Shown: positions 1,990-23,479 of the stretch, piece by piece
Position numbering within the stretch: the first letter of the stretch is position 1
Layout: the number at the start of each line of letters is the position of its first letter
Source of the DNA: a virus
Direction: 5' to 3' (one strand)
IMG/VR virus record: IMGVR_UViG_3300036814_000149
Location: 1-23,764 of that record
Length of the DNA stretch: 23,764 nt
The notes under the pieces: generated by a model
What the model was told of the DNA's origin: nothing
Databases searched by the model: none
Seen by the model: only the letters and a program-made list of their open reading frames with translations
Made by a program: the position numbers and the translations under genes

Positions 1990-2101
1990 TAGACCCAAGG
2001 GCTGGGTCACGCTCAAGGTGCACAGCACCCCGGCCCACGCGAAGAAACACCTGGCGGCGCTGAACATGAACGTGAAACACAGCAGCACCAGGGATGTGTA
2101 G
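1952..2101 (+). CDS. Small basic phage protein (MPYRVKG family)
   Basis: I choose the ATG at 1952 over the in-frame ATG at 1916. The product then starts MPYRVKGKTVEV, the same start seen in the duplicated copy at 1445, and similar short basic proteins with this start are familiar to me from environmental phage genomes. The 49-residue product contains GWVTLKVHST followed by a basic helix AKKHLAALNMNVKH. A strand-strand-helix fold is plausible. The function is unknown. Its TAG overlaps the GTG of the terminase by one base. Confidence 0.65.
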   Translation: MPYRVKGKTVEVSRPKGWVTLKVHSTPAHAKKHLAALNMNVKHSSTRDV

Positions 2102-3486
2102 TGAACTACGAAGCGTCCATCGAAGAGATGCGGGCAGATCCGGCCCTGTTCGTGGAAGGGATACTCGGCGCTGAACCGGATGCGTGGCAGTCTGATGTGA
2201 TGGCTGCGGTAGCGGCAGGGAATCGCGGTATCAGCATCCGGTCAGGCCACGGCGTAGGCAAGACGAGCGTTCTTAGCTGGCTCGCTCTTTGGTGGATTGG
2301 CACACATTACCACGCAAAAGTAGTGATCACCGCCCCAACGGCAGCGCAGTTACATGATGCCCTACTGCCCGAAGCGAAATCATGGCTAAAGCAGTCACCA
2401 GCGGCGTTCCGCGACTTGTTCAACGTCAAATCCGACCGGATAGAGCTACTCGCTGACCCGGAACGCAACTTCATATCTGCGAAGACCAGCCGTGCGGAGC
2501 AGCCGGATGCGTTGCAAGGCGTCCACGCCGACCACGTTCTTTTGATCTGCGACGAAGCCAGCGGCGTACCCGAACAGGTCTATGAATCTGCTGGCGGCTC
2601 AATGTCAGCACATCACGCCACGATGGTACTGGCCGGGAACCCCATCAGAAGTACCGGCTATTTCTACGATACTTTCCACAAACTCGCTGATCGGTGGAAA
2701 ACTTTCCACATATCGTGCGAGAAGTCTGGGCGCGTATCTGACGAATACATCGAAGAATGCCGACTGCGCTACGGTGAGGAGTCGAACACCTACCGGGTTC
2801 GGGTGCTTGGAGAATTTCCCAAGGGCGATGACGATACGGTTATCCCCCAAGAACTCGTCGCAGACGCGATCAGCCGCGACATAGTGCCGACCCAATTTGG
2901 ACCCACGATCTGGGGCGTCGATGTGGCCCGGTTTGGGGCTGATGCGTCTGCGCTTTGCAAGCGAAAAGGTAACGCGATCACGGAACCGATCCGATTGTGG
3001 CGCAACCTCGATACAATGCAACTGACCGGAGCGATTAAGGCCGAATATGACGCCAGCGAAGAAAAACCGACCGAGATATTCGTGGACGCTATCGGGTTGG
3101 GCGCTGGTGTAGCAGACAGGCTGCGTGAGCTTGAATTGCCAGCCTACGCGATCAACGTCAGCGAAAGTCCGGCGATGGGCCACCACTATCTGAACCTTCG
3201 CGCCGAACTCTGGTATAAGGCGAAAAGCTGGCTAGAAGGCCGTGATGTGCGGTTGCCCAGGGATGAATTGTTGAAAACAGAATTGACTACTGTGCGCTAC
3301 ACCTATACATCTAGCGGCAGAGTGAAGATCGAATCGAAAGCCGATCTCAAGCGCAGGGGGGTCGCATCACCTGACAGCGCAGACGCCTTTGTTTTGACGT
3401 TCGCGTCAGAGGCCGGGACCGCTATGGGTGGACGAGCGGGTAGAAGTATGGGTAAGATTAGAAGGAACTTGGTGGGGGTAGTCTAG
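2101..3486 (+). CDS. terL: Terminase large subunit (DNA-packaging ATPase/nuclease)
   Basis: The product is the motor that pumps DNA into the prohead and cuts the concatemer. It has 461 residues, a normal length. The N-terminal ATPase shows a Walker A-type loop SGHGVGKT at residues 48-55. A Walker B strand VLLICDE at 146-152 carries Asp151 and Glu152, and a coupling-type motif LAGNP lies at 177-181. The C-terminal RNase H-like nuclease shows acidic residues in GVDVARFG (Asp274), FVDAIG (Asp329) and SPDSADAF (Asp425, Asp428). The GTG start overlaps the stop of the preceding gene (TAGTG). The gene is followed by a long non-coding stretch rather than directly by the portal, which is less usual. 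A candidate partner small subunit is on the other strand at 22732-23223. Confidence 0.95.
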   Translation: MNYEASIEEMRADPALFVEGILGAEPDAWQSDVMAAVAAGNRGISIRSGHGVGKTSVLSWLALWWIGTHYHAKVVITAPTAAQLHDALLPEAKSWLKQSPAAFRDLFNVKSDRIELLADPERNFISAKTSRAEQPDALQGVHADHVLLICDEASGVPEQVYESAGGSMSAHHATMVLAGNPIRSTGYFYDTFHKLADRWKTFHISCEKSGRVSDEYIEECRLRYGEESNTYRVRVLGEFPKGDDDTVIPQELVADAISRDIVPTQFGPTIWGVDVARFGADASALCKRKGNAITEPIRLWRNLDTMQLTGAIKAEYDASEEKPTEIFVDAIGLGAGVADRLRELELPAYAINVSESPAMGHHYLNLRAELWYKAKSWLEGRDVRLPRDELLKTELTTVRYTYTSSGRVKIESKADLKRRGVASPDSADAFVLTFASEAGTAMGGRAGRSMGKIRRNLVGVV

Positions 3487-3491
3487 GGGGG

Positions 3492-3536
3492 TAGCCCGGT
3501 GGGATGGTGGTCCTATGGGCTAACTTAAATTCCCAC
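3492..3536 (+). other. Possible H-type pseudoknot just after the terL stop
   Basis: TAGCCC at 3492-3497 can pair with GGGCTA at 3517-3522. GTGGGA inside that loop (3499-3504) can pair with TCCCAC at 3531-3536. The two stems cross, with connecting loops of 1, 12 and 8 bases. The first stem starts five bases after the TAG stop of the terminase. Readthrough would add only 13 codons, so a recoding role is weakly supported; it may simply be part of the structured intergenic region. Confidence 0.3.
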
Positions 3537-3870
3537 AGCCTTACGGTTCGCCGCTCTACAGGGCCGCGAATGGTGCCCCTAGGCTCGCCTTTTTAGTGTG
3601 GGGGTGTAGGATACATCTGAGGAGCCAGGAGCGGGGGAGTTGCACCGCCGAGAGGTACGCGCCAGTCAGTCCAACCGGGTACTCAGTCCGGCCCTGACAA
3701 GTCCTGACGCGACCAGAGCAGTTAAGAAGGGGACAGGAAGCAGGAACGAGAAGCACGGTTGCTTGGGGTGCCAGAGAGATGCTCATCTCTGCCGAGCGTT
3801 AAGACCGTGCGAGAGAGGAAGGAGAGGGCATCCTACTTCCCCAAGGGGTCTGCCCCTAGACGATTGAACC

Positions 3871-3901
3871 CTGGTGGGGTGGGGGCTTCGGCCCCTGCCC
3901 C
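3871..3901 (+). repeat. Strong UUCG hairpin, copy 1 (31 bases identical to 8280-8310)
   Basis: GGGGTGGGGGC at 3876-3886 pairs with GCCCCTGCCCC at 3891-3901 around a TTCG loop, using two adjacent G-U pairs. The C(UUCG)G closing arrangement is among the most stable RNA tetraloops. No T tract follows, so it is not a classical intrinsic terminator. It lies 39 bases before the portal start. It may act as an RNA processing or stability element, or as a weak terminator. Confidence 0.8.
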
Positions 3902-3940
3902 TCACAGGGCGCAACATAAACTTTTCGGGAAGCTGAGATA

Positions 3941-6004
3941 TTGGCCTACATAGACGAAGCTGAAACCGAAGCTGGCGTTGGGATGAGTGAAGCTGACCTG
4001 CAAGCAGTGGTCGGCAACTACATCTCAGACGCGATCCAATACATAGACGACGATATCAGCCCGACTAGGGCAGAATCGACTAAGTATTACCGTGGCGACC
4101 CGTTCGGCAACGAGGTCGATGGCCGTTCCCAGGTTGTCAGCCGCGATGTACGCGATTCCGTACAGGCCGTGCTGCCCTCCATGATGCGCGTCTTCTTCGG
4201 CTCGGAGAAGGTGGTTCAGTTCGTGCCGCGCACCGCGAACGACATGGCGATGAGCGAACAGGCGACCGACTACCTGAATTACATCATCAAGCAGGACAAT
4301 GACGCGATAGGCATATTCTACAGCGTGTTCAAGGACGCGCTGATGAATAAGGGCGGGTTCGTTAAGTGGTGGTGGGACGATTCGGTAGAAGTCCAGACGC
4401 ACAGCTTCGAGGGGTTAGACGAAGGCGCTCTTGGCCTAATCCTCCAAGAAGAGGGCGTTGAGGCCGTTAGCGTCGAGGGCCGACCAGCGACCGGCATCTC
4501 GCCGGAACAGATAGCCCAGATGGAAGCGGCGGGCCAATCTGCGCCACAGCTTTACGATGTAGAGATCAAGCGGTCCCGTAAGCGCAACCAAGTCAAGATC
4601 GAAACAATGCCGCCCGAAGAATTCTTTGTGGACGCGGCTGCTACATCGCTGGACGATGCGATGATTGTCGGCCACCGCACGATGTCCACCGTATCGGCTC
4701 TCGTCGCACTCGGATACGACGAGGATATGCTGGACGATCACCTGTCCGACGAGTTCGCGTTCGTTGATAGCGATGAATACACGGCCCGCTACTCGAATAC
4801 CGAGATGCCTGGCCCCGTATCGTCCGCTGAACGGAGGCGCGTTCTCTATACAGAGGCATATTGCTACATCGACTATGACGGCGACGGCATAGCGGAACTC
4901 AGGCGCATCTGCACGGTCGGCAACAACTACCAGATCGTGAACAACGAGGCGGCGGACTCAATCCCGTTCGCGATGTTCGCTTGCGATCCCGAGCCGCACG
5001 TTTTCTTCGGTAGCGATATCGCGGACCTGACGAAAGACATCCAGCGCGTGAAAAGCGCAGTACTGCGTGGGATGCTCGACTCGCTCTCGTTCGCGCTGTA
5101 TCCCAGGACCGGCGTGGTCGAGGGCATGGTCAACATAGACGATGTCCTGAATCCAGAGGTCGGATCGGTCATCAGAATGCGCCAGCCCGGCATGGTGCAG
5201 CAGTTGGATGTGCCGTTCTTGGGCAAAGACGCCTTCCCGATGATCCAGTATCTCGACAGCATGAAAGAATCGCGAACCGGACAGACAGCCGCGTCCCAGG
5301 GCCTGGACCCCGATGTGCTGCAATCGACTACGAAAGCGGCGGTAAGCGCGACGATCCGTGGCGCAGAACAGCACTTGGAACTCATGGCGCGACTATTCGC
5401 TGACAGCTTCAAGCGGATGTTCAAGGGCGTACTCAAGCTCGTCATCACGCATCAAGACAAAGAGCGTATTGTCCGGTTGCGCGACGAGTGGGTGCCCATT
5501 GATCCGCGTGTCTGGGACTCGACGATGGATTGCAGCGTGAATGTCGGGTTAGGTGTGGGCACAATCGACGAACGGCTGGCCGTGCTGAACCAAGTCGCGA
5601 TGCGCCAACAGGAAGCACTCGAGAAGCTAGGGCCGAACAATCCGCTGGTCGGGCTGGGCCAGGTACGCAATACGCTGGCTAAGATGCTCGAAATCAGTGG
5701 GTATCCCGACTCGAACCAGTTCTTCAAGCAAGTCCCGCTCGACTATGAGCCGCCACCGCCAGAGCCACCGAAACCGTCACCGGAAGAGTTGCTCGCCCAG
5801 GCGCAGATGGCCGATATCCAGGCGCGTACAGCTATCGACGAGCAGAAGATCCAGCTTGGCGTCCTGAAACAGCAGCAGTTGGATGAGCGTGAAAGCGCCA
5901 GAATTGCCGGTGACCTAGCCATTAGAGAATTCCAGGCACAAGAGAAATTCCAGAATGACGTTGATCTTGAGGTCGTAAAGGCGAGTCTTCAGGAAGGGTT
6001 GTGA
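3941..6004 (+). CDS. Portal protein (P22-type)
   Basis: The product forms the dodecameric ring at one capsid vertex through which DNA passes and to which terminase and adaptor bind. It has 687 residues, close to P22-type portals. Residues about 20-95 hold a characteristic N-terminal segment: an acidic helix, then YYRGDPFGNE, a VVSRDVRD motif, and PSMMRVFF. A C-terminal proline-rich segment near residues 604-614 leads into a long charged helix to the end, as expected for a portal barrel. The start is read as TTG at 3941 with GGGAAG upstream. An ATG at 3983 is the alternative and would remove 14 residues. The gene overlaps the next by one base (TGATG). Assignment is by pattern recognition. Confidence 0.9.
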   Translation: MAYIDEAETEAGVGMSEADLQAVVGNYISDAIQYIDDDISPTRAESTKYYRGDPFGNEVDGRSQVVSRDVRDSVQAVLPSMMRVFFGSEKVVQFVPRTANDMAMSEQATDYLNYIIKQDNDAIGIFYSVFKDALMNKGGFVKWWWDDSVEVQTHSFEGLDEGALGLILQEEGVEAVSVEGRPATGISPEQIAQMEAAGQSAPQLYDVEIKRSRKRNQVKIETMPPEEFFVDAAATSLDDAMIVGHRTMSTVSALVALGYDEDMLDDHLSDEFAFVDSDEYTARYSNTEMPGPVSSAERRRVLYTEAYCYIDYDGDGIAELRRICTVGNNYQIVNNEAADSIPFAMFACDPEPHVFFGSDIADLTKDIQRVKSAVLRGMLDSLSFALYPRTGVVEGMVNIDDVLNPEVGSVIRMRQPGMVQQLDVPFLGKDAFPMIQYLDSMKESRTGQTAASQGLDPDVLQSTTKAAVSATIRGAEQHLELMARLFADSFKRMFKGVLKLVITHQDKERIVRLRDEWVPIDPRVWDSTMDCSVNVGLGVGTIDERLAVLNQVAMRQQEALEKLGPNNPLVGLGQVRNTLAKMLEISGYPDSNQFFKQVPLDYEPPPPEPPKPSPEELLAQAQMADIQARTAIDEQKIQLGVLKQQQLDERESARIAGDLAIREFQAQEKFQNDVDLEVVKASLQEGL

Positions 6005-7266: not shown

Positions 7267-8274
7267 ATGGCAGTGGTCACCAATACGTTTCTTACCTACG
7301 ACGCGAAAGGCATTAGGGAGGATCTCAGTGACTTGATCTCTGATATCAGCCCGACTACAACGCCCTTTCAGAGCAACATTGGGTCGAGAGACGCAGATAA
7401 CACCTATTTCGAGTGGCAGACCGACAGCCTCGCTACGGCCAGTGGGACGCCCGTAATCGAAGGCGCGGATCTATCGACATTCACGGCAGTCACACCAACC
7501 GTTCGTCTTGGCAACTACGCCCAGATCAACATGGTGGACTTCATCATCTCAGGCACCGAGCAGCGCGTGGACAAGGCTGGTCGGGCGTCAGAGGTTGGCT
7601 ACCAGGCAGCGAAAGCTGCGAAGGAACTCAAGCGCAACGTCGAAGTAGCTGCGCTGCTGAACGGAGTTGGTGCGGTTGCTGGTGCGACTGCGACAGCCCG
7701 TGTCACAGCCGGGTTCCCTTGCTGGCTGAAAACCAACGAAACCTCCACAAACGTGACAGCGCCTAGTTACTCGGGTTCAACCCCGACAGGTGCAGCCCAG
7801 GTGTGGAAGGCTTTCGGAACGCCCACGGCGTTTACGGAGGCGATGCTCAAAACCACGATGCAGGAATGCTATTCCAGTGGTGGCGAGCCGTCGATGCTTA
7901 TGGTTGGTCCTTTCAACAAGACCGCCGTTAGCGCCTTCAGTGGTATCGCTTCTAGCCGCTACAACGTGGACGGCGCAGAGCCGTCAGTGATCATCGGGGC
8001 CGCAGACATTTATGTCAGCGACTTCGGTAATCTGTCCGTTGTGCCGAACCGTTTCTTCACATCAGTGATCGACGCTGGTGCTGGTTCGCTGATGAATAAC
8101 TGGGCGTTCTTGATCGACCCAGACGAGGTGAGGATCGCGAATCTGCGGCCTTACACCATCGAGACATTGGCGAAGACGGGTGACGCTGATAAGCGGATGG
8201 TACTCCAAGAGTGGGGGCTTCAGGTTAATAATGAGAAGGCCCACGGTGTAGTCGCCGGAATTACCTCGGCGTAG
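7267..8274 (+). CDS. Major capsid protein (DUF5309/SU10-like, HK97 fold expected)
   Basis: The 335-residue product has the pattern of the DUF5309 family, which includes the SU10-type major head protein. It shows NTFLTYDAKGIREDLSDLI at the start, then ISPTTTPFQSNIG, then FEWQTDSL, a strand region LGNYAQINMVDFIISGTE, and a helix VGYQAAKAAKELKRNVE that resembles the spine helix of HK97-fold coats. A GGAG at 7253-7256 gives a good ribosome binding site. No N-terminal protease-cleaved delta domain is evident, fitting a separate scaffold. A strong hairpin lies six bases after the stop. Confidence 0.9.
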   Translation: MAVVTNTFLTYDAKGIREDLSDLISDISPTTTPFQSNIGSRDADNTYFEWQTDSLATASGTPVIEGADLSTFTAVTPTVRLGNYAQINMVDFIISGTEQRVDKAGRASEVGYQAAKAAKELKRNVEVAALLNGVGAVAGATATARVTAGFPCWLKTNETSTNVTAPSYSGSTPTGAAQVWKAFGTPTAFTEAMLKTTMQECYSSGGEPSMLMVGPFNKTAVSAFSGIASSRYNVDGAEPSVIIGAADIYVSDFGNLSVVPNRFFTSVIDAGAGSLMNNWAFLIDPDEVRIANLRPYTIETLAKTGDADKRMVLQEWGLQVNNEKAHGVVAGITSA

Positions 8275-8279
8275 TTCTG

Positions 8280-8310
8280 CTGGTGGGGTGGGGGCTTCGG
8301 CCCCTGCCCC
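8280..8310 (+). repeat. Strong UUCG hairpin, copy 2, after the capsid gene
   Basis: These 31 bases are identical to 3871-3901. The stem GGGGTGGGGGC/GCCCCTGCCCC closes on TTCG. The hairpin lies between the capsid stop (8274) and the next ATG (8326). Here too there is no following T tract. A hairpin after a highly expressed capsid message would be expected to block 3' exonucleases or mark a processing or partial-termination point. Confidence 0.8.
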
Positions 8311-22731: not shown

Positions 22732-23223
22732 TCACGCTTCCTCCTCCACGATCTCGTAGTCGGCTTCCGGGATCTCTTCGTGCTTGGCTTTCGTTTTCGC
22801 TTCGACGGCCTTGAGCCCTGCCAGCCAATCGCCATCTATCCCGACAGCTACGTTTATCTGAGCGTCCGCCTTGCCGAATGTGCCCCGGTCATAGCGTTCG
22901 GACATCCATCTGCGTTGTTCTACTTGCAGCCGTGCGACACTCACAGTTTCGGGATCGGTTCCGTCTGCTATCGCCAGGGCCTCTTCAGCGAGGTCAGCCG
23001 CGACGATCTTCAGGTTTTCTTTCCATCGCTTCCAGCGTCCTTCGGTTTTATCGGCATGAAGCCAATCGTAGAACATACGCTTCGACATCTTGCCGATACT
23101 AGGCTCGAGACCATGCAACATCTTCTTGACATGGCGATACTGCACATAGCTGGCGAAGACGTTTTTCTCGCCATATGCGTCGAGCCGTTTAGCGGTTTTT
23201 TGAGTAATGCTTTTTCCTGCCAT
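22732..23223 (-). CDS. terS: Probable terminase small subunit (Sf6-type)
   Basis: The product would recognise the packaging site and load the large terminase. I choose the ATG at 23223, preceded on this strand by AGGAG at good spacing, giving 163 residues. Residues about 45-66 look like a helix-turn-helix end (SKRMFYDWL). They are followed by a helix ADLAEEALAIADG and VARLQVEQRRWMSERYDRGTFG, a pattern typical of Sf6-type small terminases (ADE.., then RLQVD-R-KW, then YG.K). The C-terminus is acidic. It lies six bases from the convergent plus-strand operon and about 19 kb from terL on the opposite strand. Confidence 0.7.
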   Translation of the reverse strand: MAGKSITQKTAKRLDAYGEKNVFASYVQYRHVKKMLHGLEPSIGKMSKRMFYDWLHADKTEGRWKRWKENLKIVAADLAEEALAIADGTDPETVSVARLQVEQRRWMSERYDRGTFGKADAQINVAVGIDGDWLAGLKAVEAKTKAKHEEIPEADYEIVEEEA

Positions 23224-23479
23224 AACGCTTCTTCTCCTGTTCCCAACTGGGCCATGAATCAATAATAATCTGAAGTCTTCTCTGGAGCCTCTCTTCCGAC
23301 ACCAACTCACCGCCGTCGTACCTCAACGGATCGTCAGGGGGCAGTCCCCCACCCCGTAGGTCGCGGATCGCGTCTTCGATATCTCGACGCCACTCCGCAG
23401 CATCCGGCGTACACTTCTCCAACGGCAGCAACTCCAACGCAGACAGGAGCCTTATGGCGTTTGCTGTGTCTTTAGCCAT
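23189..23479 (-). CDS. Hypothetical protein upstream of terS
   Basis: On the minus strand the ATG at 23479 overlaps the stop of the preceding gene by eight bases; an ATG at 23494 would add five residues. The 96-residue product is charged and helical (AKDTANAIRLLSALELLP, then AAEWRRDIEDAIRDLRGG) with a basic end (KKRYGRKKHYSKNR). I do not recognise a family. Its last 35 bases overlap the terS start, so the two are probably translated together. A regulatory role is possible but not shown. Confidence 0.5.
   Translation of the reverse strand: MAKDTANAIRLLSALELLPLEKCTPDAAEWRRDIEDAIRDLRGGGLPPDDPLRYDGGELVSEERLQRRLQIIIDSWPSWEQEKKRYGRKKHYSKNR

Follow-up and report, generated by a model that had tools for sequence, protein, structure and literature searches.

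Covariation among viral sequences shows that the 454-base gap between the genes for the large terminase subunit (terL, ending at 3486) and the portal protein (starting at 3941) encodes an RNA structure of the terL direction, and that nucleotides 3482-3583, which I will call the core, represent a new RNA family. The window, by which I mean the whole stretch of DNA analyzed, is the IMG/VR virus record IMGVR_UViG_3300036814_000149, 23,764 bases in length. The features considered are these:

2101-3486, plus strand: terL, large terminase subunit (PHROG 2, E 7e-48; Pfam Terminase_6N)
3482-3583, plus strand: core RNA, a three-way junction of P1, P2 and P3 with a conserved J2/3 (match to covariance model R1 at 3481-3584, 88.9 bits)
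3482-3489, plus strand: 5' strand of P1, UCUAGGGG, paired with CCCCUAGG at 3576-3583 (7 of 8 pairs covary; 94.7% of cells paired)
3492-3522, plus strand: P2 hairpin with a one-base bulge (11 of 12 pairs covary; seen in individual folds)
3524-3531, plus strand: J2/3, CUUAAAUU (CUUAAA unpaired and invariant, 98-100% of 62 sequences)
3532-3574, plus strand: P3, with closing pairs, an internal loop (ACAG...) and an apical hairpin (covarying helices 4-6)
3576-3583, plus strand: 3' strand of P1, CCCCUAGG (individual folds and covariation)
3604-3723, plus strand: module A, a clade-specific structured insert (29 predicted pairs, only 2 of them double-changed)
3737-3845, plus strand: module B, a second recurrent structured RNA (covariance model R3)
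3869-3909, plus strand: UUCG-loop hairpin, without a terminator-like U-tract
3941-6004, plus strand: portal protein gene, TTG start (Pfam SU10_portal, E 1e-203; PHROG 1216)

According to the list of open reading frames in the window, the terL-portal gap is the sole one exceeding 300 bases, as the earlier note had remarked, and the stems picked out there are exact: gcacggt (3753-3759) with accgtgc (3804-3810), and agagat (3775-3780) with atctct (3785-3790). The UUCG hairpin that was said to end the gap is present at 3869-3909, though about 30 bases short of the end. The MFE of the 454 bases taken together is ordinary (z -1.11, with 12 of 100 shuffles as good; z -0.27 for the minus strand), so the 3' hairpins by themselves are unconvincing. 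A search of positions 3300-4000 of the window found no promoter-like or terminator-like sites. Coding explanations of the gap were considered and rejected: its small ORFs are not retained in relatives, where the stretch is absent or reordered, and readthrough of the terL stop codon does not fit variation in length that is not in multiples of three, with no frame conserved. At some distance, about 19 kb from terL, a candidate terS lies on the minus strand (22732-23310; PHROG 1482, E 1e-5), convergent to the late operon.

Searching viral contigs with terL provided 80 loci, with 78-100% identity. The gap could be measured in 79 of these close relatives and comes to 63-456 bases, except for one of 1424 bases (L032, longer downstream of the core). 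The notion that selection has kept 454 bases in place is thus not sustained: lengths differ by a factor of seven, and what nearly all relatives share comes to about 100 bases. Those bases are the core, found at the terL stop codon or slightly further on in all relatives except L066, L068 and L069, which lack it between terL and portal; it is missing as well from the rest of the 26-kb L066 record. Two relatives give weak core scores (L023, 29 bits; L025, 21 bits). The variation in length comes from the modules downstream of the core. Module A precedes module B in the window, L007 and L062, the order is reversed in L013, L014, L017 and L079, A occurs without B in L003 and B without A in L005, L006, L009 and L077, and many relatives have neither. 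The inserts between core and promoter in the gaps of L034, L067, L070 and L073 share pieces such as GTTCAAAGCTGTTCAGAGT. The earlier note was right about its stems, which prove to be part of a second RNA (3737-3845), but it did not include the most conserved element, 3482-3583.

The core is about 102 bases long and begins within terL, whose stop codon TAG (3484-3486) falls within the 5' strand of P1. P3 is entered through three pairs (ACC/GGU in most sequences, CCC/GGU in the window, AAC/GUU in types like L042), followed by a long 5' internal loop and a variable apical hairpin. J3/1 is a single invariant G (3575), leading back into P1, and the near-invariant unpaired bases are G3490, CUUAAA, A3535 and G3575. 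The core of the window folds better than its shuffles (z -2.28). Of the individual cores taken from seven contexts, six do so, with z between -2.1 and -4.3, and L037 reaches only -1.5. A pseudoknot between the P2 loop (GUGGU) and ACCAC of J2/3 could be drawn in the clade of the window, but the complementarity is absent from types L088, L111, L118 and L033 and was therefore left outside the consensus. A permuted form of the core was also sought, with one pattern; its single hit (L140), without any core context, was taken as chance.

The evidence for the structure comes mostly from covariation. Over 62 distinct sequences, 30 of the 34 pairs of the core have changed on both sides with pairing kept, giving a score of 0.385 on the model-based alignment, compared to 0.171 for shuffled alignments and 0.05-0.11 when partners are slid. 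Because such an alignment is fitted to the structure, the count was repeated on a plain MAFFT alignment, and there 29 of 34 pairs are double-changed, with a score of 0.290 against 0.160 shuffled. Simulation of 200 alignments along a tree without structure gave 0.13 +- 0.02 and at most 0.20, where 0.52 was observed. P1 provides an instance, its sequence swapped wholesale from context to context with the pairing kept (CUAGGGG, CUAAGGG, ACAGAGGG, CUCGAGGG, UGUAAAGG, AAAGGGGG), a replacement that concerns the outer pairs of the helix. G-U combinations outnumber A-C combinations 194 to 67 within the pairs of the core, which identifies the molecule as an RNA of the terL strand.

No Rfam 15 family reached its gathering score in the window, the gap yielded only chance matches at E<=10, and there was no match at the core in 10 relatives. 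The suggestion that the gap contains a structured phage RNA outside the known families is accordingly upheld, given the strong covariation, the G-U asymmetry and the lack of an Rfam match. The earlier note had said that it would give up the idea if collected terL-portal regions lacked covariation or if a known family, such as an intron, were matched; covarying pairs were found in those regions, and no family was matched.

Model R1 was built from 55 sequences and gives 74 matches in 654 kb. Together with DNA patterns, it places the core in viral contigs at about nine other kinds of site, including sites around other terL genes and among early genes, in a leader and where a late operon ends:

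Between terL of an unrelated phage and a small ORF: L088, L090, L098, L102, L108
In a leader, before the same small ORF as in the L088 type, terL having moved away: L106
Before an N6/N4 DNA methylase gene: L084, L096
In early-gene blocks: L111, L117, L123, L116, L137
Upstream of the terS-terL-portal genes of another phage: L118
As a second copy of the core, upstream of terL: L013, L087, L103
Where a late operon ends opposite convergent genes: L138, L147

At these sites the core is placed at gene borders, on the strand of the adjoining operon. Two contexts outside the training set were found by the model alone, with E about 4e-6 to 1e-8 (rough values, from a short calibration). L123 and L111 stay alike until P1 is complete, after which their sequences part and lead into an extra gene. 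Some phages have two copies of the core (L013/L087 and G001). There is no same-strand gene downstream of the core in L138 and L147 and none upstream of it in L106, so the core need not act on one particular neighbor.

Within the collections searched, the core was found only in viral contigs. Among 85,000 bacterial and archaeal genomes, a DNA-pattern scan matched only three times, always without P1/P2, and L125 scores only 22 bits with the model. Five named phage relatives with terL 48-58% identical have no core RNA, and a nucleotide search of a phage collection returned nothing save one short chance match. Some of the loci present features of their own. In L087 the second core copy (7480-7573; 3406-3499 in L013) replaces most of the gene that matches the ORF at 322-717 of the window. 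The ORF that follows the RNA in L088, L106 and L108 (about 102-116 amino acids, DGYDDCVIGVLERFG...) is a conserved small protein with no Pfam match, and its gene adjoins the RNA even where terL has moved. The 59,795-base record G003, containing L027, L049 and L138, has two different terL genes and three core RNAs, and it is possibly a chimeric or concatenated assembly.

Module B, which contains the two stems noted earlier, is also shown by covariation to be an RNA family absent from Rfam 15: 11 of its 27 pairs change on both sides (score 0.334, compared to 0.181 shuffled and about 0.1 slid), and Rfam had no match at module B in four sources. Copies with different stems occur in L147, L138, L168, L170, L165 and L169 (E 1e-7 to 1e-26, equally rough), directly 5' of the core copy in L147 and L138, at the end of a late operon in L168 and L170, and in L165 and L169 following the gene for the major capsid protein of an unrelated phage. 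The last two also carry, close to module B, a Mu-gpT-DE RNA on the minus strand (RF03012; L165 4022-4073, L169 9502-9553) in the gap that separates the capsid gene from the next one, and so have two structured RNAs in one intergenic region. Module A was found only in the clade of the window, with one copy at another locus (L005 3394-3513), alone between two small genes and just 5' of a Shine-Dalgarno sequence. Since the terL-portal gap of L005 has only B, the modules evidently move within genomes. As to the UUCG hairpin, an exact second copy of 31 of its bases (3871-3901) stands at 8280-8310, behind the major capsid gene. Many relatives have near-identical copies (89-100%) downstream of portal, and the terL-portal copy co-occurs with the A and B modules.

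One sister group (e.g., L037, L044, L051, L067, L075 and L080) has a sigma-70-like promoter between the core and portal, in L037 TTGACA-18-TATGTT. In 16 sister phages the apical loop of P3 is complementary to the portal leader just after this internal promoter, at a site mostly 12-23 bases before the start codon. Loops paired with their own leaders score 371, compared to 302.5 +- 14.6 for swapped combinations (p 5e-5 for the 16 sequences, by a statistic that ignores phylogeny), and compensatory exchanges are seen at at least three positions (UCCUCGCCCG/CGGGCGAGGA, UCCUCGCCUG/CAGGCGGGGG, UCCCCGACCA/UGGUCGGGGG, UCCCUGCCC/GGGCAGGGG). In the window, the loop-leader pairing is not significant (p 0.25) and there is no promoter of the sister-group kind. 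The complementarity as a universal rule is unsupported outside this one clade, and I take it as a lead to what the P3 arm may be capable of, not as the function of the copy in the window.

What the core does can be proposed from sequence comparison with about an even chance of being right: it may be a portable cis-acting control element of polycistronic phage mRNA. The rigid junction would serve as a docking site or scaffold for a protein, a ribosome or a tertiary contact, and the P3 arm would be the adaptable part, setting the output for the neighboring gene. In the sister lineage, the P3 loop would pair with the first bases of the portal leader, beside the Shine-Dalgarno sequence, so that mRNA reading through from terL would hide the ribosome site of portal and mRNA from the internal promoter, lacking the core RNA, would be translated. 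The combination would amount to a timing switch of the type described for T4 gene e. As the window has neither the sister-type promoter nor the pairing, its core presumably separates or tunes the expression of terL and portal within one transcript by another route.

The main rival, which I consider unlikely, would make the core a small self-cleaving ribozyme of a new class, with the junction as active site, cutting mRNA between genes or releasing a processed RNA. This would suit a compact RNA of about 100 nt with roughly ten near-invariant bases clustered at the junction, where an A-rich unpaired stretch lies beside a G-N-G strand, and would suit also its scatter, in varied copy numbers, over unrelated gene contexts, much as pistol RNAs are located near phage genes (PMC4604425). 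However, no Rfam ribozyme family matches at E<=10, the sole hit of the one permuted-form pattern tried resembles a chance match, J3/1 is just one G, and no dinucleotide stands out as scissile. That the core might be a new catalytic three-way-junction phage RNA, with CUUAAA as its active-site strand, spread through operons as a portable mRNA-cutting module, is a conjecture I regard as unlikely. It is quite unlikely that the core is released from the terL transcript by processing and works as a c4-like antisense or trans-acting RNA, with a P3 loop that pairs with the portal leader or other phage mRNAs. The c4 RNAs are an established phage class (PMC2864571), and the loop-leader complementarity with compensating changes in 16 phages speaks for such an RNA, all the more because the promoter between the partners would give a short portal mRNA without the core RNA, reachable only in trans; but the complementarity is not significant in most other clades, that of the window included, and RF01695 does not match.

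The core often immediately precedes early genes or long operons (those of portal and late genes), a position that would agree with a nascent RNA of the put kind, by which bound RNA polymerase is kept from terminating in the operon that follows. That reading is very unlikely, since put consists of two stem-loops near promoters and the core is a three-way junction in mid-operon, and in L138 and L147 the core closes the operon, with a separate terminator-like repeat right behind it. The same two loci, with the core in the 3' UTR at an operon end, might instead indicate an intrinsic terminator or an element protecting the mRNA 3' end of the upstream gene, and some members do have a U-run after P1 (e.g., L033, L072, L100 and L028). 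Yet the U-tract is not conserved, there are 0 sites with a GC hairpin and U-run in window 3300-4000, a 102-base three-way junction with an invariant junction goes far beyond the needs of a terminator, and L138 and L147 have that separate repeat downstream, all of which makes a terminator highly improbable. Scarcely credible is a packaging signal, whether a pac- or cos-like DNA or a pRNA-like RNA, despite the presence of the core next to terL in nearly all terL-portal relatives and beside the unrelated terL of the L088 type. The G-U/A-C asymmetry argues for RNA and not DNA, copies occur in early regions and at operon ends, and the number varies from two (L013/L087, G001) to none in the terL-portal gaps of L066, L068 and L069 and the 26-kb L066 record. 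These facts go against the packaging-site RNA or DNA element put forward in the earlier note; the long leader it offered as another choice describes the core in some of the other contexts only.

Whether a portable control element or a ribozyme, the core has an invariant junction, portability between unrelated phages and a context-independent placement, as expected of a functional RNA module (ribozyme or docking site), and with either outcome phage biology would gain an RNA tool or a principle of regulation that is new. The phages concerned are known from metagenomes alone, and two recurrent RNA families that Rfam 15 lacks are now added to them. The covariation models are good enough for immediate searches of other data, and the pairing in the sister clade provides a concrete timing-switch hypothesis for a structural gene.

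Comparison with known systems provides partial likenesses. In T4 gene e and I-TevI (PMC3014915), read-through mRNA hides the ribosome site by means of a simple local hairpin. The sister phages share with gene e complementary arms that flank an internal promoter near the ribosome site, but the 5' arm in the core is predicted to be the loop of a three-way junction some 80-100 bases upstream. The put RNA of HK022 is a cis RNA of about 70 nt (PMC9378689) and resembles the core as a small cis RNA in phage operons, differing in that it comprises two stem-loops downstream of early promoters, in contrast to a three-way junction at gene borders. The c4 antisense RNA (RF01695, phages P1 and P7) is likewise a small structured phage RNA with a loop complementary to the leader of a downstream gene, a property of the core in one sister clade only; it is unlike the core in that there is no covariance-model match, the contexts differ, and the window is without the pairing. 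The pistol ribozyme has a hairpin followed by an A-rich linker of the UUAAA type. The core is similarly phage-associated, with a hairpin and then a linker of that type (pistol, RF02679). The core as a pistol ribozyme was rejected nonetheless, in view of the lack of a covariance-model match and of a closing P1 in pistol, and complementarity between the P2 loop and ACCA, tested as the pistol pseudoknot, is found in only part of the core members. Mu-gpT-DE (RF03012) resembles module B in being small, structured and located behind a major head gene of phages, but it is a different RNA, matching neither the core nor module B. Structured RNAs at the borders of phage genes are already known in c4, pistol, put and Mu-gpT-DE; the family of the core is itself new.
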